DNA of 64,000 nt from positions 1-64,000 of the forward strand of contig CALIEI010000044.1 in NCBI GenBank assembly GCA_938022165.1, written 5' to 3'. This DNA comes from an uncultured Saprospiraceae bacterium. GTDB lineage: Bacteria; Bacteroidota; Bacteroidia; Chitinophagales; Saprospiraceae. Under the pieces are notes generated by a model. The model was given only the letters and a program-made list of their open reading frames with translations. It was not told the origin of the DNA and did not search any database. The position numbers and the translations under genes are program-made. Numbering within the stretch: the first letter of the stretch is position 1; each line of letters starts with the position of its first letter. Shown one piece after another: positions 1 through 32,151 of this stretch.

Positions 1-1728
1 ACGTTCCAAAGCGGGCATAAGTTTATTTTGAAAAAGTAAAGTAGCTGGACGCAGCAAAAAGAAATTTAGTAGGATTACCGCTAGGGCGATACCGAATAGA
101 TTTCGCCATGCGAGCGCTCCACTAAAATGAAAAGCGATAGTAAATAGCAAAACAGCGAAAGCCATCAACAATATATTCCTTATCCTTCTCCATCTAGACT
201 CTCTGTTGTCTTCCTTTTCATCCAACTTCATAAAGTAGTAGGTGAACACTGGATTGATTACCAAAGCCACAAAAAGTGAAGAGGATAATACAATGATCAA
301 TGTAATCGGCATATATTTCATAAACTCACCCATGATGCCCGGCCAGAAAGCCAAAGGTATAAAGGCAGCTAGGGTAGTAGCTGTAGAAGCGATGATTGGC
401 CAAGCCACTTCACCAGTACCATACTTAGAAGAATCATAGTCCGTAAACTTTTCTTGCCTGTATCGATAGATATTTTCAACTACTACAATCGCATTATCCA
501 CCAACATTCCTAATGCCAAGATCAAGGCAAATAGTACTACAATATTTAATGACACATCGAGTATGCCCAATATCATAATTCCCATCAACATAGATAATGG
601 TATCGCTAGTCCTACGAAAGAGGCGTTTCTTAATCCCAAGAAAAAGAGTAAAACTAAAACCACCAGAATTACCCCAGAGATTATACTGTTCTCTAAGTTA
701 TCTACCTGGTCCTTTGTGTTTAGCGAAGTATCATTAAAAATACTAATCTTAAGATCCTCCGGAAAATTACTTCTATTATCTGCGATGACTTGCTTTACAT
801 TGTCCGCGGCACTGATTAGGTTAGTACCTTTCCTTTTTATTATATCTAAAGAGATTACTGGGTTTCGACCTGACCGTGCAATGGTAGTTCTATCCTTTGG
901 TCCAAATGTTACTTTCGCTACATCTCTCAAATATATTGGTCTTTGATTTTCACTTGAGATGATCATGTCTTCTATCTCTTTCGGACTTTCAAATTCACCA
1001 ACGACACGAACTGCTCTTCTAAAATCATTTTTCACGATTTCACCACCAGACATATTCATGTTTTCTGATCGGATGGCATTCTCGATATCCGTGAAAGAGA
1101 CTTTAAGGGATTGCATTTTCAGTAAATCAACATCTACTTTTATCTCATTAGTAAGTGCCCCTTTCAAATCAATTTTATTAACTTCATTGACTTCTTCAAG
1201 TTGGTCTTCCAAAAACTCAGCATACTTTCTCAATTGAGGCATTGGAAAATTACCACTCACATTGACGGTCATGATAGGAATCTCCGAAAAGTTTACATCC
1301 ATTACAACTGGGTCTGCCGGCAGGTCATTCGGTAAGGCTCCCTTAGCAACGTCTACCGCATCCTTAACTTTTGTTTTTACTTCTTCTATATCAAATCCAG
1401 ATTCAAACTCGGCTGTGATGGATGAGAAATCTTGTAATGAATTTGACTTTACATACTTGATACCATTGATTCCCTGAAGTTCCTTTTCAATGGGTCTAGA
1501 AACTAGGTTCTCAATGTCTGCAGCCGAGTTACCAGGGTAGGGCGTATTGATAAAAATGGTTGGCAAGGATGCTTCAGGATAAAGTTCCTTCGGCAAATTA
1601 TTGTATGACGTTAGACCAAAGCCAAGTATCATAGCGGTAAGTAAAAAGATACTTGTCGCATTATCAATCGCAAAATTGGTAAGTGAAAAGGATCTCCTCT
1701 TTTTATTTTCTGATATATTGTTTTCCAT
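1..1728 (-). CDS. RND-family efflux permease (AcrB/MexB-like), C-terminus cut by window edge
   Basis: Inner-membrane proton-driven pump of a tripartite multidrug/solvent exporter. Reading the minus strand from the ATG at 1728 gives an uninterrupted frame of 576 codons that runs off the left edge, about half of the usual ~1050 residues. The N-terminus is a short charged stretch, then a first membrane helix (FAIDNATSIFLLTAMILGFG), then a periplasmic porter domain typical of RND pumps (PGNSAADIENLVSRPIEKEL), then TM2-TM4 with LGMLVDNAIVVVENIYR, the conserved acidic relay region of HAE1/HAE2 pumps. It is the last visible gene of a tetR-tolC-hlyD-rnd operon, 23 nt after the adaptor gene. Substrate cannot be told from sequence. 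Family assignment is very secure. Confidence 0.93.
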   Translation of the reverse strand, partial: MENNISENKKRRSFSLTNFAIDNATSIFLLTAMILGFGLTSYNNLPKELYPEASLPTIFINTPYPGNSAADIENLVSRPIEKELQGINGIKYVKSNSLQDFSSITAEFESGFDIEEVKTKVKDAVDVAKGALPNDLPADPVVMDVNFSEIPIMTVNVSGNFPMPQLRKYAEFLEDQLEEVNEVNKIDLKGALTNEIKVDVDLLKMQSLKVSFTDIENAIRSENMNMSGGEIVKNDFRRAVRVVGEFESPKEIEDMIISSENQRPIYLRDVAKVTFGPKDRTTIARSGRNPVISLDIIKRKGTNLISAADNVKQVIADNRSNFPEDLKISIFNDTSLNTKDQVDNLENSIISGVILVVLVLLFFLGLRNASFVGLAIPLSMLMGIMILGILDVSLNIVVLFALILALGMLVDNAIVVVENIYRYRQEKFTDYDSSKYGTGEVAWPIIASTATTLAAFIPLAFWPGIMGEFMKYMPITLIIVLSSSLFVALVINPVFTYYFMKLDEKEDNRESRWRRIRNILLMAFAVLLFTIAFHFSGALAWRNLFGIALAVILLNFFLLRPATLLFQNKLMPALER

Positions 1729-1751
1729 ATCTTTCTGCTTTGGCTGTCTAA

Positions 1752-2936
1752 TTATTTTTCACTGATTTCCATAGGCTCTATCACCAGTGGATCACCTGTT
1801 TGTACATTTCTAGCTCCAATGGCGATCACTTCATTATTTTCTTCTAAGCCACTTGTGATCAAAACTTTACCATCATAGGATTCTCCTGTTTCAACATATT
1901 TCTTAGCAGCTACTTTTTTCCCTTTCTCATCTTCAACTACCATTACATACTCTTTACCACTGATTTCTTGCTGCACCAATTCTTGCGAAACAACCAAGGC
2001 ATCCTCGGCAACAAAATCATTAACTTTCACTAAGGCTAGGAGGTTTGGTTTTAGTTTACCGTCCTTGTTACTCATGTCTATTTCTACTTTGAAAGTCCTA
2101 TTTGCCGGATCAATTTTTCTGCCCATCAGACTTACTCTTGCCGTTTTGGTGAGTTCTAAAGCAGGAAAGAAAATTTCTACCTTTTCTCCTTGCTTAATTT
2201 TGCCTAAGTAATTTTCAGGTAGGTTGGCCACTACCTTTACTTTGTAAGTATTTAGAATTTGCACTATCGGTTGGCCGGGAGCAGACATCTCTCCCTCTTT
2301 TAAGGCTACCATGTCGATCACACCTGACAAAGGGGCATAGACATTCGCTTTAGTCAATTGAAAATTTAAGGATTCTAAACTTTTCTCCATTTGATCTACA
2401 GCACCTTTCGCTTGCAAGTATTGCATTTCTGATCCAATGTTTTGCTCCCACAATCGCTTTTGTCTTTCGTATGTATCCTTAGCTAAAGCCATTCGGGTAT
2501 TGAGTTCATCTACCTGCTTGTTGATAGATTCCATATCTACTTTTGCGATTAGCTGTCCTTTTCTGACGCCTTGCCCTTCTTTAGCTTTGAGGTATGTGAT
2601 TCGACCACCGGTTTCACTACTAGCCATCACAATATCGTCGCTCATGACCGTAGCTTGGATTTCGGAAAAATGCTTAAACTCTTCCTTTACAAGTTTAGTC
2701 GTGCTGACACTCTTTTTGACTTTTACCTTTGGTGGTTCTTCCTTCTCTATGGAAGCCATCAGGGTATCAATACTATGCTGTAGTTCTTTGAGTTTCTTTT
2801 TCTGTTCGATCAATAGTGATTTCTTGCCTGCCAAATCAAGCGGCCCTTCTTGTGTTGGTTGACAAGAAAAACAGAAAAGCAGAATGCTGAAACTTAGAAT
2901 TAAATATCTCATATCTTTTATTTTCAAATTATCCAT
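1752..2936 (-). CDS. RND efflux periplasmic adaptor (HlyD/AcrA family), lipoprotein
   Basis: Membrane fusion protein linking the RND pump to the outer-membrane channel. The N-terminus has a lipoprotein signal ending LLFCFSC, so the mature protein is probably anchored by a lipidated Cys. A coiled-coil hairpin follows (about residues 40-75 and 130-190), with the split biotinyl-lipoyl motif (AKEGQGVRKGQLIAKVD and NVYAPLSGVIDMVALKEGE), then beta-barrel and membrane-proximal domains. Length 394 is usual. An internal ATG at 2912 (MRYLILSF) would give a more compact signal peptide and is an alternative start. It lies between tolC (6 nt upstream) and the permease. Confidence 0.92.
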   Translation of the reverse strand: MDNLKIKDMRYLILSFSILLFCFSCQPTQEGPLDLAGKKSLLIEQKKKLKELQHSIDTLMASIEKEEPPKVKVKKSVSTTKLVKEEFKHFSEIQATVMSDDIVMASSETGGRITYLKAKEGQGVRKGQLIAKVDMESINKQVDELNTRMALAKDTYERQKRLWEQNIGSEMQYLQAKGAVDQMEKSLESLNFQLTKANVYAPLSGVIDMVALKEGEMSAPGQPIVQILNTYKVKVVANLPENYLGKIKQGEKVEIFFPALELTKTARVSLMGRKIDPANRTFKVEIDMSNKDGKLKPNLLALVKVNDFVAEDALVVSQELVQQEISGKEYVMVVEDEKGKKVAAKKYVETGESYDGKVLITSGLEENNEVIAIGARNVQTGDPLVIEPMEISEK

Positions 2937-8800: not shown

Positions 8801-9790
8801 ATGCAAAAAAAAGTGTTTATTACTGGAGGTACTGGTTTGGTTGGTTCTCATTTACTTAGACTTTTAGTAGCTAAGGGATATGAAAATATTTTTGCACTCC
8901 ATCGTTCTTCAAGCGATATGCGGCTTGTAAAAGATTTAGAAAATAAAGTCAACTGGGTTAAAGGAGATGTTCTAGATGTAATGACATTAGAGCAGGTGAT
9001 GCAAGATGCCTCTCAGGTTTATCATTGCGCAGCTGTTGTTTCATTTGACCCTCGAGAATATGAAATGATGGATCGCATCAATATTCAAGGGACAGCCAAT
9101 ATGGTAAATATTGCCTTACACTTGGGTATAGATAAATTTCTTCATGTGAGTTCCATAGCAGCAATCGGTAGGAGAGAAGAATTGGAAAAGGCTGATGAGA
9201 ATACGGAGTGGCAAGACAGCCCATGGAATACACGTTATGCGATCAGCAAGTATCATTCTGAAATGGAAGTCTGGCGTGCAGCAAATGAAGGACTGCCAAC
9301 TGCAATCGTTAACCCAAGTGTGATTTTTGGAAATGGTTTTTGGAATAAAGGTACAGGTCGATTTTTCAAAATAGTTGATCAAGGTTTGAAATTTTATCCA
9401 ACTGGATCAACTGGTTTTGTCAACGTAAAAGATGTTGTGAAATACATGCATGCTTTGATGGAAAGCGATATTGTAAATGAACGCTTTTTACTCAATGGAG
9501 AAAATTTAAAATACAGCTATATCTTTAACTCTATTGCAGACTTCATCAATAAACCTAGACCCTCTATAAAAGTAACCCCGCTATTAAAATCACTCGCTTG
9601 GCGAGCTGAAAAAGCAAAAAGTATGTTATTCGGTTCTTCACCTAAAGTAACAAAAGAAACAGCACACAATTCGAGTACTAACATTGCCTATTCAAACCAA
9701 AAATCACTTAATACTTTTGATATCCCGTACAGCACTATTATAGAGTGCTTAGAAGAAATGGGGGAGGAGTATTTACAAAGTAAGAATTGA
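8801..9790 (+). CDS. Extended SDR, NAD-dependent epimerase/dehydratase family
   Basis: Rossmann-fold oxidoreductase. The ATG at 8801 gives KVFITGGTGLVGSHLLRLL at the very N-terminus, the GxxGxxG NAD(P) motif; the open frame extends upstream inside anmK but that part is not conserved-looking. The catalytic YxxxK is YAISKYHSE (about residue 145) with an upstream Ser in HVSSIAAIG. Length 329 is usual. Substrate unknown: related proteins act on nucleotide sugars, dihydroflavonol-like compounds or keto-sphingoid lipids. Ends close to a repeat block and a bidirectional terminator. Confidence 0.87.
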   Translation: MQKKVFITGGTGLVGSHLLRLLVAKGYENIFALHRSSSDMRLVKDLENKVNWVKGDVLDVMTLEQVMQDASQVYHCAAVVSFDPREYEMMDRINIQGTANMVNIALHLGIDKFLHVSSIAAIGRREELEKADENTEWQDSPWNTRYAISKYHSEMEVWRAANEGLPTAIVNPSVIFGNGFWNKGTGRFFKIVDQGLKFYPTGSTGFVNVKDVVKYMHALMESDIVNERFLLNGENLKYSYIFNSIADFINKPRPSIKVTPLLKSLAWRAEKAKSMLFGSSPKVTKETAHNSSTNIAYSNQKSLNTFDIPYSTIIECLEEMGEEYLQSKN

Positions 9791-9912
9791 GAGAAATTAA
9801 GTGGAGAGTTGAAAGAAATTAAGTGAAGAGTTGAAAGGAGTTAAGTGGAGAGTTGAAAATGGAGAGTTGAAGGTAGTTCTCGCTCTCAACTCTCCATTTT
9901 CAACTCTCAACT
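9790..9912. repeat. Tandem and inverted GAGAGTTGAAA repeats
   Basis: Imperfect ~22-nt direct units built on AAGTGGAGAGTTGAAA (three to four copies, 9795-9870), followed by the inverse CAACTCTCCATTTTCAACTC (9883-9905). Together these can fold into a long hairpin before the terminator. Fragments of the same words recur near 5.04 and 55.79 kb. Confidence 0.6.
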
Positions 9913-9914
9913 AA

Positions 9915-9933
9915 AAAAAGCTTTCAGCTTTTT
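9915..9933. terminator. Bidirectional terminator between convergent genes
   Basis: AAAAAGCT (9915-9922), loop TTC, AGCTTTTT (9926-9933). A-run on one side and T-run on the other serve both the SDR operon (+) and the VOC gene (-), whose stop is 2 nt away. Confidence 0.65.
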
Positions 9934-9934
9934 C

Positions 9935-11011
9935 TTATTTAACTCGATTGAATTTCAAAGTCTTCAACATCCAATTTGGCAAAGCCTTGGTTCTGTCACG
10001 CTTCTTAAGATCAAGATACCATCCGATTTTTTTTAGAATAGGAATCTTATGTGCTTCGACAAATTCAATGAGGGTGCCATCAGGATCTTCAATATAAGTG
10101 AAGTGGCCAGCAGCTTCTCCCATATCAAAACTATCCTTACTCTTTTCATCTCTACGACTATCTACTGTAAAAGGAAAACCTTTTGCATTACAAATAGCTT
10201 CTAGCGCAGGCATATCACTTATATCATAACAAAGATGGATATAGCCAAGATCTCCCCACATACGATTAGTAAATATCTTTTTGACAGGCGTATCAATCAC
10301 TTGAACCAACTCCAGTTCACTGTGCCCCAACATTTTGCTAAAGGCGCCTTTTCTGGCTTGACTATGTCTTAATAGTACACGCCTACATTTTCTTTCTGAA
10401 CCGGGGATACCTTTCCAATCCGTAAAGCTCTCCGTTTTGTCATATACTATTTGATCGTAGCCTAAAACGTCGCGATACAGTTTAAGCGATTGATCAACAT
10501 CGCTAACGCCAATTTGGCAACCAAAAATTCCTCCGGTAGAAAAATCTGTTGATGCAAACCAATCATTTGCAGGGACAATCTCAAAGATATTATCATAAGG
10601 ATCTTTGAAATAAAAGTGAGGCTTACCTTCTGGTGTTTTTGTTACTTCAGTAAGTAAGTCAACCCCTTTACTTTTTAGAAAATCATAAGTCTTAGCTACT
10701 TCTTTACTCTTGATTTTAATGATGAATATTCCATGATCACCTAATAGAGGAGCTACCTCTGGTCCCACAGGAGTTCTACTGGTGTACTGCCAAATTTCCA
10801 TGCCACCACCACTTTGCAAATTGAGTGCAAGGATGGCGTGTCTGCTTCTTGGTTCTCCACCAGTGTAGGGTAGCATAAGTGCTGCCTCCGCGGCCTCATC
10901 GAACATAGGAATATCCATTCCCAGATGTTTTCTGTACCATGCAAATGCATCGTGTACATTACTTACTCCAATTCCAATTTGTTGGATACCGCTTATGATT
11001 GGTTGTTTCAT
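9935..11011 (-). CDS. Double VOC-domain protein (glyoxalase/HPPD-like fold)
   Basis: Two vicinal-oxygen-chelate modules in tandem, about residues 8-145 (IGIGVSNVHDAFAWYRKHLG ... GNIFEIVPAND-type ending) and 160-325 (CQIGVSDVDQSLKLYRDVLG ... YIEDPDGTLIEFVEAH). Length 358 resembles 4-hydroxyphenylpyruvate dioxygenase in layout but not in the conserved HPPD C-terminal helix, so it is better called a VOC family protein; metal-dependent isomerase, dioxygenase or lyase activity is possible. Lies downstream of the CBS/AOS fusion on the same strand, but a terminator separates them. Confidence 0.8.
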   Translation of the reverse strand: MKQPIISGIQQIGIGVSNVHDAFAWYRKHLGMDIPMFDEAAEAALMLPYTGGEPRSRHAILALNLQSGGGMEIWQYTSRTPVGPEVAPLLGDHGIFIIKIKSKEVAKTYDFLKSKGVDLLTEVTKTPEGKPHFYFKDPYDNIFEIVPANDWFASTDFSTGGIFGCQIGVSDVDQSLKLYRDVLGYDQIVYDKTESFTDWKGIPGSERKCRRVLLRHSQARKGAFSKMLGHSELELVQVIDTPVKKIFTNRMWGDLGYIHLCYDISDMPALEAICNAKGFPFTVDSRRDEKSKDSFDMGEAAGHFTYIEDPDGTLIEFVEAHKIPILKKIGWYLDLKKRDRTKALPNWMLKTLKFNRVK

Positions 11012-17904: not shown

Positions 17905-18996
17905 TTGCTCGAAATACGTAAAATAATATCTGAATACGATAAGCTAGATCATAGCAAAGAAAAAGTTGCACTAGCCTCTGTCGTAAGTGTGGAAGCTTCG
18001 GCGTATAGAAGGATTGGCGCTCGAATGCTGGTTAGAAGTAATGGCCTCTGGACAGGTGGGATCAGTGGTGGTTGCCTCGAAGGAGATGCACTGAAGCAAT
18101 CCATGAATGCGATCTATAAAAACAAATCTTCGATCGTAGTGTATGACACGATGGATGATGACAAAAATCAAATCGGAGTAGGACTAGGATGCAATGGCAG
18201 AATAGAAGTACTACTCACACCCATAGACCCCAATGATCCAAACAATGAAATAGAACTACTGCGATCCATCTTGAACGCGCAAGAGCCCTCGATCATTGCA
18301 AAAGTAATTTCTGATGATGATGAGCGATTGGCTACTAGTAAGTTAATAAATCATCATGATACTGAATTGTCATTTTTGGACATAGACTCGGATGCACTAC
18401 AAGATGCGATACAAACGGTCTTGGCTAAAAAGTCTCCACGGATTTTTGACTTGCCGGCTGGAGAAAAAGAGATCAAGGTCTTACTCGAATTTGTGCGACC
18501 CGAAACCAGATTGGTGATCGTAGGAGACAACTACGATGTCAATGCCATGGCAAATATAGCGAGCACGCTAGGTTGGGAAATTTGGGTAGTAGGTAGATTG
18601 AAAAAACTAACCAAAGAACTTGTCGGAAAAGTGAAGCGCGTGATCCCCTTTGAGGAACATACCAAAGTAAAACCGCACGACTACACTGCTGTTATATTGA
18701 TGTCCCATGATTACAAATGGGATCTAGAAATCTTGCAACATTTCCTAGAGTACAAGCCTGCCTACATGGGCATGCTAGGACCAAAAAAACGTACCTTAAA
18801 AATGGATGCGGAATTAGAAGGTGTGAATTTAGAATCTATTGATTTTTTACACAGCCCCACAGGACTAGAAGTAGGCGCAGAATCTCCTGAAGAAATATCG
18901 CTGTCAATCGCCTCTGAAATACTGGCGGTCTTTAGACAAAAGGGCGGACAGCCATTGAGAAAAAAAGTAGGCCCAATACACGAAAGAGAAGTATGA
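17905..18996 (+). CDS. xdhC: XdhC/CoxI-family molybdoenzyme maturation protein
   Basis: XdhC-type proteins bind molybdenum cofactor and help sulfurate and insert it into xanthine dehydrogenase-family enzymes. The N-terminal XdhC/CoxI domain shows GGISGGCLEGDALKQS (about residues 51-66) and GVGLGCNGRIEVL; the C-terminal Rossmann domain ends with YMGMLGPKKRT and PTGLEVGAESPEEISLSIAS. Length 363 is normal. The start is a TTG at 17905; no in-frame ATG precedes the conserved region. The stop overlaps moaA by 4 nt. A second, YHS-fused paralogue is at 24050-25024. Confidence 0.9.
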   Translation: MLEIRKIISEYDKLDHSKEKVALASVVSVEASAYRRIGARMLVRSNGLWTGGISGGCLEGDALKQSMNAIYKNKSSIVVYDTMDDDKNQIGVGLGCNGRIEVLLTPIDPNDPNNEIELLRSILNAQEPSIIAKVISDDDERLATSKLINHHDTELSFLDIDSDALQDAIQTVLAKKSPRIFDLPAGEKEIKVLLEFVRPETRLVIVGDNYDVNAMANIASTLGWEIWVVGRLKKLTKELVGKVKRVIPFEEHTKVKPHDYTAVILMSHDYKWDLEILQHFLEYKPAYMGMLGPKKRTLKMDAELEGVNLESIDFLHSPTGLEVGAESPEEISLSIASEILAVFRQKGGQPLRKKVGPIHEREV

Positions 18997-22402: not shown

Positions 22403-23536
22403 TTAGCTCTTACTTATTTTTTGTTTAGCCATTTCGTAAGCCTCCGGATCATTCACATTTTGCATGAAGTCAACCTGATCCACTTTGATCTCTTCAATAT
22501 CTGTGTTGATCAACACCTTTCTAGGGCAAGAATATCCTTGGCTCAAAAATTCCAATAAGACTGGGTAGGCGCGTGGTTCCCAGATGGTGATTAAAGGCTC
22601 CGGAAACTTAGTATCTGGATTATGAAAGCAAGTGGCTAGTTTCGAAGGATTTCGAGCACTTACCAATCGCTTGATAGATTCTTCATTTAGCAAAGGGAGA
22701 TCGCAAGCCACCGTCATCCAAGCTTGATTGGGAAATTCTCGAAAAGCTGAAAGTATCGCCCCATAAGGACCTAGTCCCGTAAATGTATCTTTGATTAGTT
22801 TATAGTCGGATTGTATTTCTTCTTTTTGATTTTCACTGATCGAGATGTAAACTTCTTCACAAAAAGGGGCGATCAAATCTGCTTCGAAATCACGTTGGGC
22901 TTTGCCGTGATAATTTATCGCACCCTTATCATAACCCATTCTTTGACTCTTGCCTCCTGCCAAAACCAAGCCCTTGAGCTTCGCTTGTTGTTTAGCATTA
23001 TCTTCCATGATAATGTCTGCCACTCTACCCACATCACAAAGATTAAACACCTCTGTATTCATGGTAATATGTGGCTTGATAAAATCATATATTTCTTGCC
23101 CGTCACTCTCAACTATCAAAATTCTTAGATCACTGATCCGATCAAGCTTTCTTTCCAGCGATTCCTTCTTTTTCTCATTGATGAAAACGATTTGTTTATC
23201 GCCAACAAAGTGATTTCCGTTGATCAACAATACATCTAGAGGAGAGAATTGCTTTTTATTTTGTTTTTGCGCAAAGGCTGTTTTCGTCTCTAGGTGGGCA
23301 TACTTTATTTTATCCTGATAATAAATGTGGTAAGGATGCTCCAAAGTAACTTCGGCGTGACTAGCGTCTATATAACCAACCTTTAGCCGACTATTGAGCG
23401 CTTTAGCCAAGTCTTTCGAAAATTGATTGATTATGCCACAAGGTGCTCCGAGTAAAGCCCACTCATTATGATGGTACTCCCCTCCTACTGGCTTGATCAA
23501 AGCAGTATGCTTCGTATGTTTTTTAGTCTCTTTCAA
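22403..23536 (-). CDS. mobA: MobB-like/MobA fusion, molybdenum cofactor nucleotidyltransferase
   Basis: Residues ~187-377 are a MobA/MocA-type NTP transferase: GLVLAGGKSQRMGYDKGAI at its start, then TVACDLPLL with the metal-binding Asp. This domain would attach GMP or CMP to the cofactor; CO dehydrogenases use the cytosine dinucleotide form, so a MocA-like CTP preference is expected (inference). Residues 1-185 look like MobB but the P-loop is degenerate (LLGAPCGIINQF, no GKT/S). The start overlaps moaC by 14 nt. Last gene of the cox/Moco operon. Confidence 0.85.
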   Translation of the reverse strand: MKETKKHTKHTALIKPVGGEYHHNEWALLGAPCGIINQFSKDLAKALNSRLKVGYIDASHAEVTLEHPYHIYYQDKIKYAHLETKTAFAQKQNKKQFSPLDVLLINGNHFVGDKQIVFINEKKKESLERKLDRISDLRILIVESDGQEIYDFIKPHITMNTEVFNLCDVGRVADIIMEDNAKQQAKLKGLVLAGGKSQRMGYDKGAINYHGKAQRDFEADLIAPFCEEVYISISENQKEEIQSDYKLIKDTFTGLGPYGAILSAFREFPNQAWMTVACDLPLLNEESIKRLVSARNPSKLATCFHNPDTKFPEPLITIWEPRAYPVLLEFLSQGYSCPRKVLINTDIEEIKVDQVDFMQNVNDPEAYEMAKQKISKS

Positions 23537-24049: not shown

Positions 24050-25024
24050 TTATGCCGGAATATACTTGGCTGGATCTTTTTCAAAACTCACTTTACAGCC
24101 ATCGCAGCAAAAGTAAACTTTCTCTCCTGCATGCTCAAGTACATGTTTTGCCGTACTTTTTTGAATTGGAATATTACAAACAGGATTCATATAATAATCA
24201 CCAGCTGGCATGGTAAGCTTCTCCGCTTGCGGCTTAGCTGTCTGTTCATTGTCTACTCTAAATTTTTTGATAATTTCTGCCAATATACTTATAGCTACTT
24301 CTTCTGGAAGTTCTGCGCCCAAGTTAAGCCCTGCCGGGCTTTTTATCTTTTTCAACTGATCAAAGGTGATCCCCATTCCACGCAAGTCAGTATAAATGGC
24401 TTGTGCCTTTATGGGGCTAGATACAAAAGCGAGGTATTGACTTTCCATACTGATCGCCTTATGCAAAGCCTCTAGATCTCCCTCTCCTTGCGTACATACT
24501 ATGGTATAGCAATTCCGATGATTTTCATTTATCTCGAAATCTTTTATGCCGTGTAATTTATCCGCAGTAGGGTATACATTTTTATCCACCACATTTTGCA
24601 CAACATCAACGCTGTAATCCATCGCCTTTGCTATTTTCGCTAAAGCCATTCCGATGTGCGAATTTCCAAAAATAACGAGTTGAGGTGTTGGCATAACTGG
24701 TTCAATATAGACTTCAACTTCTCCACCACTCTGGCAGGTCATGCTGTAAATCTTAGTGTTAGATAAATTATTTTTTTTCTGATCTTTTGTGATTAGCACT
24801 AATCTTGGCTTTCGATCCTTCATAGAAAGTAAGGCTTCTTTCAGCACAATACCTCTGGTACATCCTCCGCCAATCCATCCATGAATTTTTCCATCTGATG
24901 TAATAACTGCTTTATCTCCAGGCTTACCAGAAGATGGCGTTTTTCTACGCACAATCATGGCAGTAGCATAGGCCTCCGTGCTATTCCTTAAAGCCATTAT
25001 TTTATCTACAAATTCATTACGCAT
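24050..25024 (-). CDS. XdhC/CoxI-family protein with C-terminal YHS domain
   Basis: Maturation factor for the CO dehydrogenase, with an added metal-type domain. Residues 1-~90 are the XdhC/CoxI domain (GWIGGGCTRGIVLKEA at 49-64; SMTCQSGGEVEVYIEP), ~113-260 the Rossmann domain (QLVIFGNSHIGMALA; SPAGLNLGAELPEEVAISI). The last ~45 residues are a YHS domain: YMNPVCNIPI followed by KVYFCCDGCKVSFEKDPAKY. YHS domains occur in copper/silver ATPases and other metal proteins. Since form I CO dehydrogenase has a Mo-S-Cu site, a copper-handling role is attractive but is inference. Start overlaps the coxE stop by 8 nt. Confidence 0.87.
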   Translation of the reverse strand: MRNEFVDKIMALRNSTEAYATAMIVRRKTPSSGKPGDKAVITSDGKIHGWIGGGCTRGIVLKEALLSMKDRKPRLVLITKDQKKNNLSNTKIYSMTCQSGGEVEVYIEPVMPTPQLVIFGNSHIGMALAKIAKAMDYSVDVVQNVVDKNVYPTADKLHGIKDFEINENHRNCYTIVCTQGEGDLEALHKAISMESQYLAFVSSPIKAQAIYTDLRGMGITFDQLKKIKSPAGLNLGAELPEEVAISILAEIIKKFRVDNEQTAKPQAEKLTMPAGDYYMNPVCNIPIQKSTAKHVLEHAGEKVYFCCDGCKVSFEKDPAKYIPA

Positions 25025-26159
25025 CTAATAATATATTTTCAAGCTCAAGCAAGCTACTAAAATTGTGTGCTGATCCAAAATGATTTAATGAAGGTAATGC
25101 AGCTTGCATCCCAACCTGTATCGGCTCATAGCCTTGCATACCTTTCAATGGGTTGAGCCAAATTAATTTTTTGCTTCGCATCTTGATATGTTTCATAGCG
25201 GCATCCAATATTTCAGGCTTCCCTGTATCTAATCCATCACTCAAGACAATCGTTATGGTCTTTCCATTCAAGTATCTTTTGGAATAATTGTCATTAAAAT
25301 CAGTCAAACACTTTCCGATTTTTGTACCGCTTGACCAATGTTTAGCATGTCGAGAAACCATAGCCAAAGCACCCGCCATATTCTTATCTGATATATAGTC
25401 TGTAATTCTCAACAAACTGGTGCTAAATGTAAACACCTCTACTTCTTTAAAGTTGGATCTTAATGACCAAAGAAACTTCAGCAAATAAAAAGAATACTTA
25501 TCCATGGATCCACTCACATCTAATATCACCATTAAGCGATATTTATCCTTCTTTTTATTCTTTCGTGATAGTTTAATAATATTTCCTCCATTTTGGATAT
25601 TCAAGCGAATAGAGTTGGCAATGTCGATTTGTCCTTTGTTTGCCTTCTTTCTTCTTCTTTTGAGACGCTGACTCATTTCCTTGACTAACTTTTCAGACAG
25701 CTCATCTAAGGCATCAGATTGATTCTTTGTCAAATAAGCAAAATCAGTGCGCTTTAAAGTTTCTTTTGTATTAGCGCCTGTGGTGGTTTTTGCCTCTTCT
25801 CCTTCTTCTTCATTGGCATCTGAGTTACCCTTCCCCAACATGACAGCCGTACTCACTTTGTTGGTCTTTACAGAGGTTTGGTTCTTATTCGTTCTTTTGT
25901 CTTGAATGACTGTACCTTTTTGCTTCCAAAATTGATTATACATTTTTTTGAAAGCTACACGCTCTTCTGCTTCATGACAAAACAAACTCGTAAGTGCATA
26001 TTCAAAGAGTGCTTTATCTGGCCATAGGCCAAATAAAGCACTTTCGAATGTATCTTTAGTACATTGAATTCCTGAATGAAAACCATTTAATCTAGCTTTT
26101 TGAGCAAAGCCTATAAAGGCTTCTGAAAAACTAGAAAATTGAGTGTAATGTTGACTCAT
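25017..26159 (-). CDS. coxE: CoxE-like von Willebrand factor A domain protein
   Basis: Partner of the CoxD ATPase in maturing the bimetallic CO dehydrogenase site. The C-terminal half (about 205-380) is a VWA domain with MIDAS DVSGSMDKYS, a conserved Thr in SSGTKIGKCL and LSDGLDTGKPE. The N-terminal half is helical and charged, including a KRRRKKANKG segment. Length 380 agrees with the CoxE family. In line between orf60 and the xdhC-YHS gene. Confidence 0.9.
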   Translation of the reverse strand: MSQHYTQFSSFSEAFIGFAQKARLNGFHSGIQCTKDTFESALFGLWPDKALFEYALTSLFCHEAEERVAFKKMYNQFWKQKGTVIQDKRTNKNQTSVKTNKVSTAVMLGKGNSDANEEEGEEAKTTTGANTKETLKRTDFAYLTKNQSDALDELSEKLVKEMSQRLKRRRKKANKGQIDIANSIRLNIQNGGNIIKLSRKNKKKDKYRLMVILDVSGSMDKYSFYLLKFLWSLRSNFKEVEVFTFSTSLLRITDYISDKNMAGALAMVSRHAKHWSSGTKIGKCLTDFNDNYSKRYLNGKTITIVLSDGLDTGKPEILDAAMKHIKMRSKKLIWLNPLKGMQGYEPIQVGMQAALPSLNHFGSAHNFSSLLELENILLDA

Positions 26160-26396: not shown

Positions 26397-27248
26397 TTAA
26401 TCACTGGTGAAAAATTCATTTTTTACAGCCTGGATATCATGGTTTGATTTCAACAAACAAGACAAACTATTATACATCGCGGCGTCATCATTGTCTAGCG
26501 CTGCGATACCTTTTGCCCAATCTATTGTCTCTGCTATTCCAGGCGTTTTATCTAATTTTAAAGTTCGCACTTTTTCCACAAAGTCTGCAATTTTATTTGC
26601 CAATTGCGACTCAATATTGGGAATATGCTTCTTTATAATCTTTAGTTCTTTTTCTGCAGATGGATAATCAACCCAATGATACAAACATCTCCGCTTCAAA
26701 GCATCACTCAACTCTCTTGTTCTATTGGATGTCAATACCACTATAGGTTTTTGCTTTGCCGATATAGTACCCAATTCTGGAACGCTAATTTGAAAATCAG
26801 AAAGCAACTCCAACAAAAAAGCTTCAAACTCTTCATCTGCCCTGTCGATTTCATCGATAAGCAAAATCATTCGTTTATTATTAGTAATGGCTCTTAGCAA
26901 AGGTCTTTTCAAAAGGTACTCTTCCCCAAAAATCATTTCTTCCTTTTCTCTATCCGACTTGTTGCTACTTTCAGAAATCTTTATCGCCAACAATTGTTTT
27001 TGATAATTCCACTCGTAAATGGCGTTATTTACATCAAGCCCTTCATAGCATTGCAACCTAATCAACTCATAGCCCAGGTACTCAGATAAAATATGTGCAA
27101 TCTTTGTTTTACCTACCCCAGGGTTACCTTCTAATAACAAAGGCTTTTCGAGCTTCATCATCAGATATAAAACTGTTGCCAACTCCTCTTCAACTACATA
27201 CCCTAAATTATCAATAATAGGGATAAGCTCCCTAGGGTTATCTACCAT
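26397..27248 (-). CDS. coxD: CoxD-like MoxR-family AAA+ ATPase
   Basis: ATP-driven chaperone needed for assembly of the [CuSMoO2] centre in studied CO dehydrogenases. Walker A LLEGNPGVGKTKIA (about 34-47), Walker B MILLIDEIDRADEEFEAFLL (about 122-141), sensor 1 in VVLTSNRTRELSDALKRRCL with the Arg finger region. Length 283 is standard for CoxD/MoxR. Starts 4 nt after coxG. Confidence 0.93.
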   Translation of the reverse strand: MVDNPRELIPIIDNLGYVVEEELATVLYLMMKLEKPLLLEGNPGVGKTKIAHILSEYLGYELIRLQCYEGLDVNNAIYEWNYQKQLLAIKISESSNKSDREKEEMIFGEEYLLKRPLLRAITNNKRMILLIDEIDRADEEFEAFLLELLSDFQISVPELGTISAKQKPIVVLTSNRTRELSDALKRRCLYHWVDYPSAEKELKIIKKHIPNIESQLANKIADFVEKVRTLKLDKTPGIAETIDWAKGIAALDNDDAAMYNSLSCLLKSNHDIQAVKNEFFTSD

Positions 27249-27252
27249 CTAT

Positions 27253-27780
27253 CTATTTCTTACGTCCGAAAATACTTTTAGCAACAGTACCCAACATTGA
27301 ACCAGCATTCATTGTATTATCTACTGATCCACCTGCGAGTTTTGCTCTGAAATTTTCTACGAACTGATCTAAGAGCTGATCTGAAACATCATTAATCAAC
27401 CTAGAACCAAATTGTGCAAGCATTCCAATAATGGTAATATCCATAGAGAATTTTACTTTGGTTTTGCCATCTTCTTCAGTCAAGGTACCATTCATAATCA
27501 TATCAGCTGATCCCTTACCTTTGCTATCTAAGCCACGGCCCTTTAAAACCATTTTTCGATTTTCTTCGTCCAATTCAACGATCTCAATATCACCTGCATA
27601 AGCAGCCTTGATTGGGCCAAACTTGGTGACTACTTCTCCTTTATAGTTTTTATCGTCTATTTTCTCGGTGATTGAAGCACCAGGTACACAAACAACAATC
27701 TCAGCAGGGTCAGCTAAGTTTTTCCACACTTCGGCTATTGGTTGCTCAATTTCAAACTCCTTAACTATTTGAGTATTCAT
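27253..27780 (-). CDS. coxG: CoxG-like protein (SRPBCC fold, CO dehydrogenase subunit G family)
   Basis: CoxG family proteins recruit CO dehydrogenase to the cytoplasmic membrane and may carry quinone. SRPBCC fold visible: IEQPIAEVWKNLADPAEIVV at the N-terminus, CVPGASITEKIDDKNYKGEV, and the long C-terminal helix (SDQLLDQFVENFRAKLAGG). ATG at 27780 (MNTQIVKEFEIEQP) is preferred over an upstream in-frame start at 27807, which would add a hydrophobic tail overlapping a hairpin. No C-terminal membrane helix is seen. Directly precedes coxD. Confidence 0.92.
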   Translation of the reverse strand: MNTQIVKEFEIEQPIAEVWKNLADPAEIVVCVPGASITEKIDDKNYKGEVVTKFGPIKAAYAGDIEIVELDEENRKMVLKGRGLDSKGKGSADMIMNGTLTEEDGKTKVKFSMDITIIGMLAQFGSRLINDVSDQLLDQFVENFRAKLAGGSVDNTMNAGSMLGTVAKSIFGRKK

Positions 27781-27798
27781 AAATTCTAATATTAAAGT

Positions 27799-27825
27799 AA
27801 GCACCACAAGTAATTTGTGGTGCTT
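27799..27825. terminator. Strong hairpin between coxL and coxG
   Basis: AAGCACCACAA (27799-27809), loop of 5, TTGTGGTGCTT (27815-27825): 11 perfect base pairs. It lies after the coxL stop (27860) and just before the coxG start (27780). The following ACTTTAATAT on the minus strand is only weakly U-rich, so it is more likely an attenuating or RNA-processing/stabilising stem than a full terminator. Confidence 0.7.
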
Positions 27826-27859: not shown

Positions 27860-30241
27860 CTAGGCATTGTTGTCAAAATACCCCACCTTCTGTAGCTCTT
27901 TAAACAACTTAAATGGTGTAACAGGTATTTCCAAATGCTTTATTCCTAAGTGAGAAACAGCATCAACGATTGCATTTACGATTGCTGGTGGCGCCCCTAC
28001 TGTTGGTGATTCACCTACTCCTTTCGCTCCTATCGGATGATGAGGTGCAGGGGTTATAGTATGACCCGTTTCCCAACTTGGAGACTCTACTGCAGTAGGC
28101 ACTAGATAGTCCATAAACGTACCGTTAAGAATATTACCAGATTCATCATAAATTAGTTCCTCATACATCGCAGGTGCAATACCTTGCGTCAAGCCACCAT
28201 GTACTTGTCCTTGTACGATCATAGGATTTATGATATTACCACAATCATCAATGGCAACAAATCTTCTAACCTTGATATCACACGTTTCAGCATCTACTTC
28301 CGCTACACAGATATAAGCACCTGAAGGGAAAGTTAAGTTTGGAGGATCGTAGTAATGCGTTGCTTCAAATCCACCCTCCATTCCTTCTGGGTGGTTGGTA
28401 TAAGCAGCAAAAACAATTTCTTGAATCGTCTTTGACTTCTCAGGCGCTCCCTTTACAAAGAACTTGCCTGGCTCCCATTCTAGATCTTGCTCAGAAACTT
28501 CCATCAAATGCGCTGCAATTTTCTTGGCTTTATCTCTCAACTTACGAGCAGCCATAGCCGCAGCTGCACCAGCTGTAGGTGTACTTCTACTCGCATAAGT
28601 TCCTAATCCATAAGGTGCAGTATCCGTATCTCCTTCTTCTATCTGGATATTCTCCATGGGTATACCCAACTCTTCAGCAATGATTTGAGCATAAGTCGTT
28701 TCGTGACCTTGCCCTTGAGACTTAGTACCGAATCTTGCGATTGCCTTTCCAGTTGGATGCACTCTGATTTCAGCACTATCAAACATTTTTATTCCTAGTA
28801 TATCAAAATCCTTTGACGGACCTGCTCCTACTACTTCAGTAAAAGTTGAGATACCAATTCCTAAAAACTTTTTACCCTCTTTTCTCATTTCGATTTGTTC
28901 TTTTCTCAAATCGTCATAACCGATCGCATCCATCGCTTTTTGCAAACCAGCATGATAATCACCACTATCATATGACCAGCCCGTAGGTGACGCCCAAGGG
29001 AAATCTTCCTTCTTAATGAAATTCTCCATTCTTAGTTGCGCTGGATCTTTACCTACTTTCTTAGCAAACATATCCGTTACACGCTCTATAGCATGCACTG
29101 CTTCTGTTACTCTAAAAGAGCAACGATACGCTACCCCACCTGGAGGCTTATTGGTATATACTGCATCAGCTTCCATGTAAGAAGCTCCATAATCATAAGA
29201 TCCTGTCCCTATCGAAAATAATCCTGTAGGGAACTTAGAAGGATTTGCAGAAGCATCTGTATATCCATGATCAGCTAATACTTTAAAACGAGTAGCCTGT
29301 ATTTTTCCATCTTTGGTTCCAGCCATTTCAGCTGTGATGTGATAGTCACGAGCAAATGAATCTGCTTGCAAGTTTTCACTTCGATCTTCGATCCACTTAA
29401 TAGGTGCTCCAGTCAAAAAGGAGACCGCTATGGCTATAACATATCCTGGATATACTGGTACTTTACCACCAAATCCTCCTCCAATATCTGGAGAAATAAC
29501 CCTAATCTTTTCTTCTGTCAATCCTACGTGACCAGCTACTAAGGCGATGACCGTTCTGATGGCGTGTGGTGCCTGAGTAGTCATATACATCGTAAGATGA
29601 TTTTCTACTTTGTTGTATGAAGCAACACAACCACATGTCTCTATAGAAGCAACGTGTATTCGAGGTATATGCATCTGCTGCTTGACCACAACATCGGCAT
29701 TATCGAATACAGAATCCGTCTTTTCCTTATCCCCTACTTCCCAGTGCCAAATATGATTATCCGTCTTTCCTTCTTGGTCTACTCTTAACACAGGTGCTTC
29801 TTCATCTAGTGCTTTGAACGGATCCATAAGGGGCTTCATTGGCTCATATTCTACCCTAACGGCTTCCTTACCATCTCTAGCAATATATCTACTAGTAGCT
29901 ATTACAGCAGCTACTTCTTGTGCTTGATACATTACCGTATCTGTAGGCAATACCATCTGCGTATCGGACATCAAAGTTGGCATCCAGTGTAGGCCATACT
30001 TCTCCAAATCTTTTCCCGTGACTACAGCTACTACACCTTCTATCTCTAATGCTTTGCTAGCATCAATATTTTTAATTTTTGCATAGGCATATGGAGATCT
30101 TACGATATCCATATATAGCATACCTGGCAATTTTACATCATCTACATAATTTCCTTTTCCTTGGATAAATCGAGCATCTTCCTTTCTTTTTTTGGAGTGC
30201 CCCATCCCTCCTATTTCTTTGGATGTTTTACATTTTATCAT
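27860..30241 (-). CDS. coxL: Aerobic CO dehydrogenase large subunit, form I
   Basis: Catalytic Mo-Cu subunit oxidising CO to CO2. The active-site loop is AYRCSFR at 371-377; the AYxCSFR pattern with Cys374 (the copper ligand) defines form I enzymes, in contrast to AYRGAGR of form II. Other cofactor motifs are intact: GGGFGGK 254-260, GQGHETTYAQI 510-520, and the base Glu744 in KGVGESPTVGAPP. Length 793 is typical (~800). Lies in the canonical order coxM-coxS-coxL with coxG, coxD, coxE following. The active-site signature makes genuine CO oxidation the best prediction. Confidence 0.97.
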   Translation of the reverse strand: MIKCKTSKEIGGMGHSKKRKEDARFIQGKGNYVDDVKLPGMLYMDIVRSPYAYAKIKNIDASKALEIEGVVAVVTGKDLEKYGLHWMPTLMSDTQMVLPTDTVMYQAQEVAAVIATSRYIARDGKEAVRVEYEPMKPLMDPFKALDEEAPVLRVDQEGKTDNHIWHWEVGDKEKTDSVFDNADVVVKQQMHIPRIHVASIETCGCVASYNKVENHLTMYMTTQAPHAIRTVIALVAGHVGLTEEKIRVISPDIGGGFGGKVPVYPGYVIAIAVSFLTGAPIKWIEDRSENLQADSFARDYHITAEMAGTKDGKIQATRFKVLADHGYTDASANPSKFPTGLFSIGTGSYDYGASYMEADAVYTNKPPGGVAYRCSFRVTEAVHAIERVTDMFAKKVGKDPAQLRMENFIKKEDFPWASPTGWSYDSGDYHAGLQKAMDAIGYDDLRKEQIEMRKEGKKFLGIGISTFTEVVGAGPSKDFDILGIKMFDSAEIRVHPTGKAIARFGTKSQGQGHETTYAQIIAEELGIPMENIQIEEGDTDTAPYGLGTYASRSTPTAGAAAAMAARKLRDKAKKIAAHLMEVSEQDLEWEPGKFFVKGAPEKSKTIQEIVFAAYTNHPEGMEGGFEATHYYDPPNLTFPSGAYICVAEVDAETCDIKVRRFVAIDDCGNIINPMIVQGQVHGGLTQGIAPAMYEELIYDESGNILNGTFMDYLVPTAVESPSWETGHTITPAPHHPIGAKGVGESPTVGAPPAIVNAIVDAVSHLGIKHLEIPVTPFKLFKELQKVGYFDNNA

Positions 30242-30270: not shown

Positions 30271-30774
30271 TTAGACAAACTTCGGCTCAGTGGAAGGAAG
30301 TTCTTTGCCCTGCATCTTTGCAGAAGTCCATTGAATAGCGGAAACAATATTGTTGTAACCTGTACAGCGACATAAGTTGCCCGCAATCCCCCATCTAATT
30401 TCATCTTCAGTTGGGTTCGGATTTTTTTCTAATAATTCTATTGCTCTCATCATCATTCCTGGTGTACAGAATCCGCAATGTAATGCATGATTTAAGTGAA
30501 AGCCTTCTTGTATTGGATGTAAGCCCTCAGCAGTAGCCAATCCTTCTACAGTTGCTATTTCTTTACCATCAGCCTGCACTGCCAACACAGTACATGATTT
30601 TGCTGACTTGCCATCTATTAATATTGTGCATGCTCCACATGAAGAAGTATCGCATCCAATATGCGTACCCGTTAGAGATGCATTTTCTCTTATTGCATGA
30701 ACCAATAACATACGAGGCTCTACTTCCATCGTATGCTCGGCACCATTTATTTTTAAAGTTATTTTCTTTGTCAT
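30271..30774 (-). CDS. coxS: CO dehydrogenase small subunit, two [2Fe-2S] clusters
   Basis: Carries electrons from the Mo-Cu site to FAD. N-terminal plant-type ferredoxin cluster: [16 protein letters not shown] then SC (about residues 40-62); C-terminal helical cluster: [11 protein letters not shown] and [13 protein letters not shown] (about 98-141). All eight Cys are present. Length 167 is standard. 7 nt downstream of coxM and 29 nt upstream of coxL. Confidence 0.97.
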
Positions 30775-30781
30775 GATAATA

Positions 30782-31648
30782 TTATTTTGCTCTTGAAATC
30801 GCCTTATTCAGCATACGTTTTGTAATTATTTTCACTAAGTGTCTTTTATATTCTACATTTCCTCTTAGATCTTCTGATGGATTACAGTCCTCTGAAGCAA
30901 ACAATGCAGCTTGATTGATCACAGATTCTGAAAGATCACTACCTATCAGTACTTCTTCCGAACGAGCTGCGCGCATCGGGATACTATTCACATTGGTCAA
31001 TCCGATACCTGCTCTGGTGCACTTACCATCTTCGTCGATCTGAACCATTGCAGCAACACCAGCTGTAGCATAGTCTCCTACCTTTCGCTCTGCCTTATGA
31101 TAAGCCGATCCAAATCTTCCGCTAGCAGCAGGAATTTGAATTTCAGTCAACACTTCTCCATGCTGTACAGAAGTTGTATAAAACCCATGAAAGAAATCAT
31201 CTATAGGAACGGTACGCTTGCCATCCTTGCCTGTGATTTCTACAGACGCCCCTAAAGCAAACATTACCGCTGGATGATCATTAGCCGCATCACCATGCGC
31301 TAGATTGCCTCCTAGTGTACCAAAGTTTCTCACTTGCGGATCCGCTATAAGCTTTGTAGCATCTGTGAATAAATGATACTTACTTTTTATAATTTCAGAA
31401 TCCTCCACTTCCACTTCTTTTGTCATTGCCCCAATTTTGAGCATACCTCCCTCTTCCTTTACATAGGAAAGACCTGGAATATTATTGATGTCGATTAAAT
31501 GCGTTGGTGCAGCAAAACGCAATTTCATCATTGGAATAAGACTATGCCCTCCGGCAAGAATTTTTGCCTCATCACCATACTCATGCAATAAAGAAATCGC
31601 TTCCTCTAATGTAGATGGGGCCTCGTAATTAAAATTTTCTGCAATCAT
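30782..31648 (-). CDS. coxM: CO dehydrogenase medium subunit, FAD-binding
   Basis: Flavoprotein passing electrons from CoxS to the quinone pool. FAD motifs: [14 protein letters not shown] (about 32-45) and the [19 protein letters not shown] stretch (about 111-129). C-terminal CoxM-like alpha/beta domain. Length 288 is typical. First structural gene of the enzyme; preceded by a small membrane-protein gene ending 5 nt upstream. Confidence 0.96.
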
Positions 31649-31653
31649 ATTAT

Positions 31654-32151
31654 TTAGTTAAATTTTGAATGAATTGGACTATATCTGTGTTTAAAGAATT
31701 TATTATAAAAGTATCCGAAACTACCATTGAACCATATACCAAAAAACAAGGTTACACTCGCCAGATAATACAAGGATTCTGAAAGGTAGATGAATTGACT
31801 TATCGTTAGTAATAATATACCCACGGAAGAAATCGAGGCAGCAATCCATGTTCTCAGTCCCTTTCCGTTTAGAAAAATACCTAGCAATACCATTAATGAC
31901 AGCAATACTATGATGTACCCTGAATAAGCATCTGCATTTGGAAAGTATTTACTGCCAGTGCACATAGAAACGGCACCAGAATAAGCCATAACACAAAAAG
32001 GGCATTTAGGAAGCAGAGCAATGAGGATGGCAGGCATCCAAGAAAAATTATATTTCTTTGATTTTTTACACTTTTTACAAGGTAATGAATATTCTGCCTG
32101 GGTTGGGTTTTTCAATGTTTGCTTTTGGTATTTTACAATGGTATCCAACAA
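31654..32151 (-). CDS. Cys-motif multi-pass membrane protein heading the cox operon
   Basis: Not recognised with certainty. Four hydrophobic segments (about 40-65, 75-95, 100-120, 125-145). Cys pairs: CKKC at 25-28 in the soluble N-terminus and LLPKCPFC before/within the first helix, suggesting metal or thiol chemistry in the manner of MerC-like membrane proteins. The longest reading starts at a TTG (32151); an ATG at 32037 would remove the first Cys pair. Only 5 nt separate it from coxM, so it is probably co-transcribed. A link to copper supply for the Mo-Cu site is speculation. Confidence 0.65.
   Translation of the reverse strand: MLDTIVKYQKQTLKNPTQAEYSLPCKKCKKSKKYNFSWMPAILIALLPKCPFCVMAYSGAVSMCTGSKYFPNADAYSGYIIVLLSLMVLLGIFLNGKGLRTWIAASISSVGILLLTISQFIYLSESLYYLASVTLFFGIWFNGSFGYFYNKFFKHRYSPIHSKFN

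Follow-up and report, generated by a model that had tools for sequence, protein, structure and literature searches.

The window analysed here, a stretch of 64,000 nucleotides from an uncultured Saprospiraceae bacterium (contig CALIEI010000044.1, positions 1 to 64,000), carries a form I cox operon on its minus strand. The genes are arranged in the order coxM-S-L-G-D-E-F, followed by moaC and a mobA-like gene, all on that strand. The last cox gene encodes an XdhC-type maturation protein with a YHS domain fused to its C-terminus. The features are as follows.

17905 to 18996, plus strand: second XdhC gene (CoxI-like) without YHS, used as comparison copy (Pfam)
24050 to 25024, minus strand: coxF with fused YHS, 324 aa (open reading frame, Pfam, orthologues)
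24272 to 25024, minus strand: XdhC/CoxI and XdhC Rossmann core of CoxF, residues 1-251 (Pfam)
24197 to 24253, minus strand: flexible linker of CoxF, residues 258-276 (pLDDT below 50 at 258-269)
24056 to 24196, minus strand: YHS domain of CoxF, residues 277-323 (Pfam, predicted fold, alignment)
25017 to 26159, minus strand: coxE, VWA_CoxE (open reading frame, Pfam)
26397 to 27248, minus strand: coxD, MoxR-type AAA ATPase (open reading frame, Pfam, TIGR profiles)
27253 to 27807, minus strand: coxG (Pfam)
27860 to 30241, minus strand: coxL, form I, large subunit of Mo-Cu CO dehydrogenase (TIGR02416, motif)
30271 to 30774, minus strand: coxS, 2Fe-2S subunit (open reading frame, profile)
30782 to 31648, minus strand: coxM, FAD subunit (open reading frame, profile)
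31654 to 32151, minus strand: 165-aa Cys-containing membrane protein, candidate metal importer (function inferred)

The CoxL of the window scores 1209 bits against TIGR02416, the equivalog profile of aerobic CO dehydrogenase, and reads AYRCSFR, the active-site motif of form I (Mo-Cu) enzymes. The coxF gene starts with ATG, comprises 324 codons and overlaps the 3' end of coxE by 8 nt. Its product carries XdhC_CoxI (PF02625) at residues 13-76 (4.7e-14) and the XdhC Rossmann domain (PF13478) at residues 116-251 (3.6e-25), and it ends in a YHS domain (PF04945, residues 280-323) recognized at 2.7e-10 with 40.5 bits, above the gathering cut-off of 30.3. The open reading frame and Pfam thus bear out the initial annotation, which had described an XdhC-type protein downstream of coxE ending in YHS, and both tail motifs it had quoted, PVCNIPI (here as NPVCNIPI) and YFCCDGCK, are found in the sequence. 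That annotation had left the gene unnamed; we add the name coxF, since the position in a form I cox operon and the homology to CoxF identify it as the coxF orthologue. Against TIGR02964, the profile for XdhC of xanthine dehydrogenase, the protein reaches 43.4 bits, under the equivalog cut-off of 161.6. Five Saprospiraceae orthologues (55-62% identity) have the full architecture with invariant YHS cysteines, and hence the XdhC-YHS fusion is not a chance product. A genome search recovers a single YHS domain in the assembly, that of coxF, and two XdhC proteins are encoded in the genome. The separate XdhC gene starting at 17905 lacks YHS according to Pfam, as had been stated. Beside moaC and coxF, the MobA-like reading frame (22403-23536, minus strand) has an N-terminal part that resembles a MobB-type fusion. 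The same contig encodes a second CoxL, of form II type, outside the window (94735-95598, about 66 kb away) in a cluster ordered coxG-S-L-M-D-E, and no XdhC was seen with this cluster up to the contig end.

AlphaFold predicts a confident core for the window CoxF, a disordered linker (residues 258-269, pLDDT below 50) and a YHS fold with a pLDDT of about 83-88 within the full protein and 94 when modelled alone. With the whole protein as query Foldseek returned solved XdhC structures, and with the tail the best matches were the YHS domains of phenol hydroxylase and toluene monooxygenase, followed more weakly by L24e TRASH, all with weak E-values (0.03 upward). A PDB sequence search with the YHS tail was set aside, as this short Cys-rich query mainly hit zinc fingers. 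The predicted metal ligands of the YHS domain are N280, C283, C306 and C310, together with the conserved C307; the first ligand position is thus occupied by asparagine instead of aspartate or cysteine, while C283, C306 and C310 are present. Of 24 YHS-CoxF proteins, 23 have all four cysteines (C283, C306, C307 and C310). The exception is a Deinococcus protein (locus 9001-10059) in which C283 is replaced by D and C306 by T (PVD, FTC); its metal site may have changed or be decaying. The core contains C97-x-S99-x-G101, which aligns with M107CPSHGTM of Oligotropha carboxidovorans CoxF. This C-x-S-x-G motif occurs in 39 of 40 CoxF proteins and in none of 82 other XdhC proteins (0/82), and judged by this distribution it is a real CoxF signature.

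How CoxF tails are distributed was surveyed with a CoxF-YHS profile in 396 Bacteroidota genomes and with a core-only CoxF profile in 245 genomes of one class and 299 genomes of the window's order; a genome-wide scan started from the single window protein reached Saprospiraceae only. CoxF proved to be a discrete family, with all core-only matches below 1e-90 and none between 1e-90 and 1e-45. All Bacteroidota CoxF recovered carry a C-terminal metal domain (28/28, a count to which five Saprospiraceae loci from another collection were added, with possible species overlap with the sampled genomes), either YHS (19 proteins) or HMA (9 proteins). The HMA domain, of copper-chaperone type (MSCxHC), replaces YHS at the same position in nine CoxF of one class, probably Rhodothermia, and in the three such proteins scanned PF00403 was recognized at 3e-10 to 1e-9. 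Form I CoxL is encoded in the same operon for 27 of the 28 CoxF; the contig of the 28th is too short to reach CoxL.

Neither domain was found as a tail on any of the 82 non-CoxF XdhC proteins from the same Bacteroidota genomes. The sole long tail among them is a C-terminal MobA/MocA-like nucleotidyltransferase fusion in one genome (locus 901-2604, minus strand). When the same 396 genomes were searched for YHS, chiefly small proteins and proteins of about 900 aa were returned, and among the matches listed the only XdhC fusions were the three CoxF. Form II clusters of Halococcus, Azospirillum and Halobaculum encode an XdhC beside coxD and coxE, and it likewise ends without YHS or HMA (3/3). YHS-XdhC fusions equally common beside non-copper enzymes would have counted against a copper role, and this is not what the survey gave, with YHS or HMA on 28/28 CoxF and 0/82 other XdhC. 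Since related sequences are not independent, the two kinds of domain and their occurrence in several phyla count for more than the bare numbers, and a Fisher value calculated with 27 CoxF is left out of the argument for the same reason. Together with the tail-less form II proteins, the genomic pattern argues that the fusion tracks the copper enzyme. Our literature search found no paper linking XdhC with YHS, YHS with CO dehydrogenase, or HMA with CODH or coxF, though domain databases may list the architecture.

Beyond Bacteroidota, sampling consisted of plasmid records. In these, YHS-CoxF is encoded next to a form I CoxL in Deinococcus, Thermomicrobium roseum, Paraburkholderia, Caballeronia (AYRCSFM) and the archaeon Natronorubrum, and so in Deinococcota, Thermomicrobiota, Burkholderiales and Halobacteria. 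The CoxF proteins of nine alphaproteobacteria, O. carboxidovorans included, and of the actinobacterium Nonomuraea have neither YHS nor HMA; their CoxL is of form I, and the roseobacter CoxL motif reads SYRCSFR. YHS on CoxF is therefore common yet dispensable. In T. roseum coxF-YHS follows directly after coxL, with no coxD or coxE within the 19-kb stretch, and copper loading may proceed there without adjacent coxD/E. Mapped on a tree built from 40 CoxF cores, the tail states YHS, HMA and none require three changes. The shortest reading would be one ancestral YHS, losses in the alphaproteobacteria and Nonomuraea, and one swap for HMA; several independent gains of YHS may also have occurred, the tree having moderate support, some long branches and thin sampling outside Bacteroidota.

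Functional data come from O. carboxidovorans, where the published evidence tying CoxF to copper consists of insertion mutants made by one group. CO dehydrogenase from coxE and coxF mutants contained 0.00 and 0.043 mol Cu per mol, respectively, compared to 1.47 in the wild type; the enzyme was folded, its Mo and FAD contents were normal and its sulfane sulfur was close to normal (PMC4240915). CoxE and CoxF are mutually dependent, with CoxE also lost in the coxF mutant (PMC4240915), so that the mutants do not separate the roles of the two. A short stretch of the core, M107CPSHGTM, was taken as a putative Cu site, and CoxF was proposed on this ground to donate the copper (PMC4240915). The initial annotation had suggested that the fused protein loads copper or sulfur. 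Its copper half is supported by the mutants, which lose Cu and not Mo, by the genomic contrast between CoxF and other XdhC, and independently by the unrelated HMA domain at the same spot in nine orthologues; CoxF is likely the copper donor of Mo-Cu CO dehydrogenase. The sulfur half finds no support, since the enzyme of the coxF mutant keeps its cyanolysable sulfur (1.40 versus 1.53 in the wild type; PMC4240915) and a domain-free XdhC is encoded nearby in many clusters. A specialization for the Mo-S-Cu site, also suggested at that time, is a property of the CoxF family as a whole; YHS is an accessory missing in the model organism. Because O. carboxidovorans CoxF works without YHS or HMA and the domain is absent elsewhere too, YHS is not required for the copper chemistry.

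We infer that YHS-CoxF binds and transfers copper, and consider it probable, from its sequence context, that the tethered YHS of this coxF orthologue takes up Cu(I) and passes it on to the Mo-S site. The XdhC core and CoxE would dock on the folded, sulfurated apo-CO dehydrogenase, as genetics has shown in O. carboxidovorans and by extension here. Tethered flexibly by 15-20 residues, the C-terminal YHS domain would hold one Cu ion, probably Cu(I), with C283, C306, C310 and perhaps N280 or C307 as predicted ligands. The ion might then reach the equatorial Mo-SH, possibly via the CoxF-specific C97 motif, and complete the [CuSMoO2] site. In the Rhodothermia-type relatives the HMA domain would do the equivalent job, and where a lineage has neither, loading would have to be direct or depend on a separate copper carrier. 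MHYT genes were considered as copper donor in YHS-less clusters and dropped; apart from weak matches they occur in alphaproteobacterial loci only, and CoxC (MHYT) is a CO-responsive, copper-dependent transcription regulator (PMC11347149).

The tail could instead be a copper sensor that switches CoxF between sulfur-protecting and copper-loading states, with the copper coming from another chaperone or from the core. The one fused YHS studied biochemically among those found is indeed a Cu-dependent switch on an enzyme (PMC4626032), and the CoxF of the model organism functions without the domain. A search of the assembly at E 0.001 found no HMA domain of CopZ or CopA type, which is unusual, although the assembly is 88% complete; with no other YHS found in it either, a separate carrier of one of these types is not in evidence there. 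HMA domains are mainly Cu(I) carriers, which also counts against a sensor, and we regard this reading as rather unlikely. A YHS domain that binds zinc or no metal and merely docks CoxE or CoxL would fit the toluene-4-monooxygenase YHS, which is metal-free in the crystal (PMC4626032), as well as the Deinococcus YHS without two canonical ligands. Against it stand the four cysteines kept in nearly all YHS-CoxF and the exchange for HMA, an unrelated fold with a copper-type thiolate site, which points to metal as the shared property; such a docking role seems improbable. A chance event in a single lineage, with no functional link to copper, is the account of the fusion that we disfavour as very improbable. 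One YHS and one HMA event on the tree could explain the Bacteroidota cases, but five genera outside Bacteroidota also have YHS-CoxF, each time next to form I CoxL, and the same site has acquired a second type of domain.

Copper delivery by the YHS domain may be connected to the small membrane protein at the head of the operon, whose gene lies 5 nt upstream of coxM. Its family has invariant C25, PKCPFC (48-53) and C64, and 16 of 19 YHS-type Bacteroidota cox loci have such a gene in front of coxM; none was found in the HMA-type or other-phylum cox loci examined. Strong matches (E below 1e-26) came from 11 genomes of the 299-genome order sample, all of them with CoxF, and the family is almost restricted to CoxF-encoding genomes. 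Similarity to MerC is sub-threshold in 6 of 12 members (best 0.004, Pfam), and the protein belongs to no named family. That it imports copper is a guess. On this basis we tentatively envisage, as a possible but doubtful extension, a private copper route in Bacteroidota form I cox operons, in which the MerC-like protein would import Cu and the YHS of CoxF would deliver it to Mo-S, with YHS/HMA being ancestral and lost in the model organism.

Mo-Cu CO dehydrogenase helps to clear CO from air. The existing model of its copper loading is built on mutants and weak motifs in a CoxF without a recognized copper domain. That one site of CoxF holds either of two unrelated metal-binding domains, which in this survey accompany the copper enzyme only, speaks for CoxF as the donor. 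YHS is a small, soluble and mutable domain and makes the copper-donor question directly testable, and YHS or HMA on an XdhC may serve as sequence marker for clusters likely making the Mo-Cu enzyme.

Compared with the known systems, the window CoxF shares with CoxF of O. carboxidovorans OM5 (Oligotropha/Afipia) the XdhC_CoxI and XdhC Rossmann core (36% identity), the position directly after coxE in a form I operon and the C-x-S-x-G motif. In contrast, the O. carboxidovorans protein, with 280 aa, has no YHS or HMA domain and no cysteines in its tail, and its proposed Cu site (M107CPSHGTM) and a phytase motif lie in core and tail. The XdhC of xanthine dehydrogenase has the same two-domain core (solved relatives 2we7/2we8 and 3on5), whereas the 82 non-CoxF XdhC compared lack C-x-S-x-G as well as YHS and HMA. 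In the adenylyl cyclase of M. phlei, YHS gives Cu-specific activation with D178, C181, C204 and C208 as likely ligands (PMC4626032), and the window YHS has the same fold and the same D/N-x-x-C ... C-x3-C ligand pattern. It differs in its host, a molybdoenzyme maturation factor, in the extra C307 after C306, and in the first ligand, which is N in CoxF of Bacteroidota and Burkholderiales. The metal-free YHS of toluene-4-monooxygenase is a reminder that the fold alone is no proof of copper binding. HMA copper chaperones (Atx1/CopZ type, PF00403) correspond to the domain at the C-terminal place of the nine CoxF and probably do an equal job there, although the HMA fold is unrelated to YHS and the window CoxF has no HMA. 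In P1B copper ATPases the N-terminal metal-binding region contains HMA or TRASH/YHS (PMC5552934), and this alternative use is the closest parallel for the exchange of HMA and YHS on CoxF.
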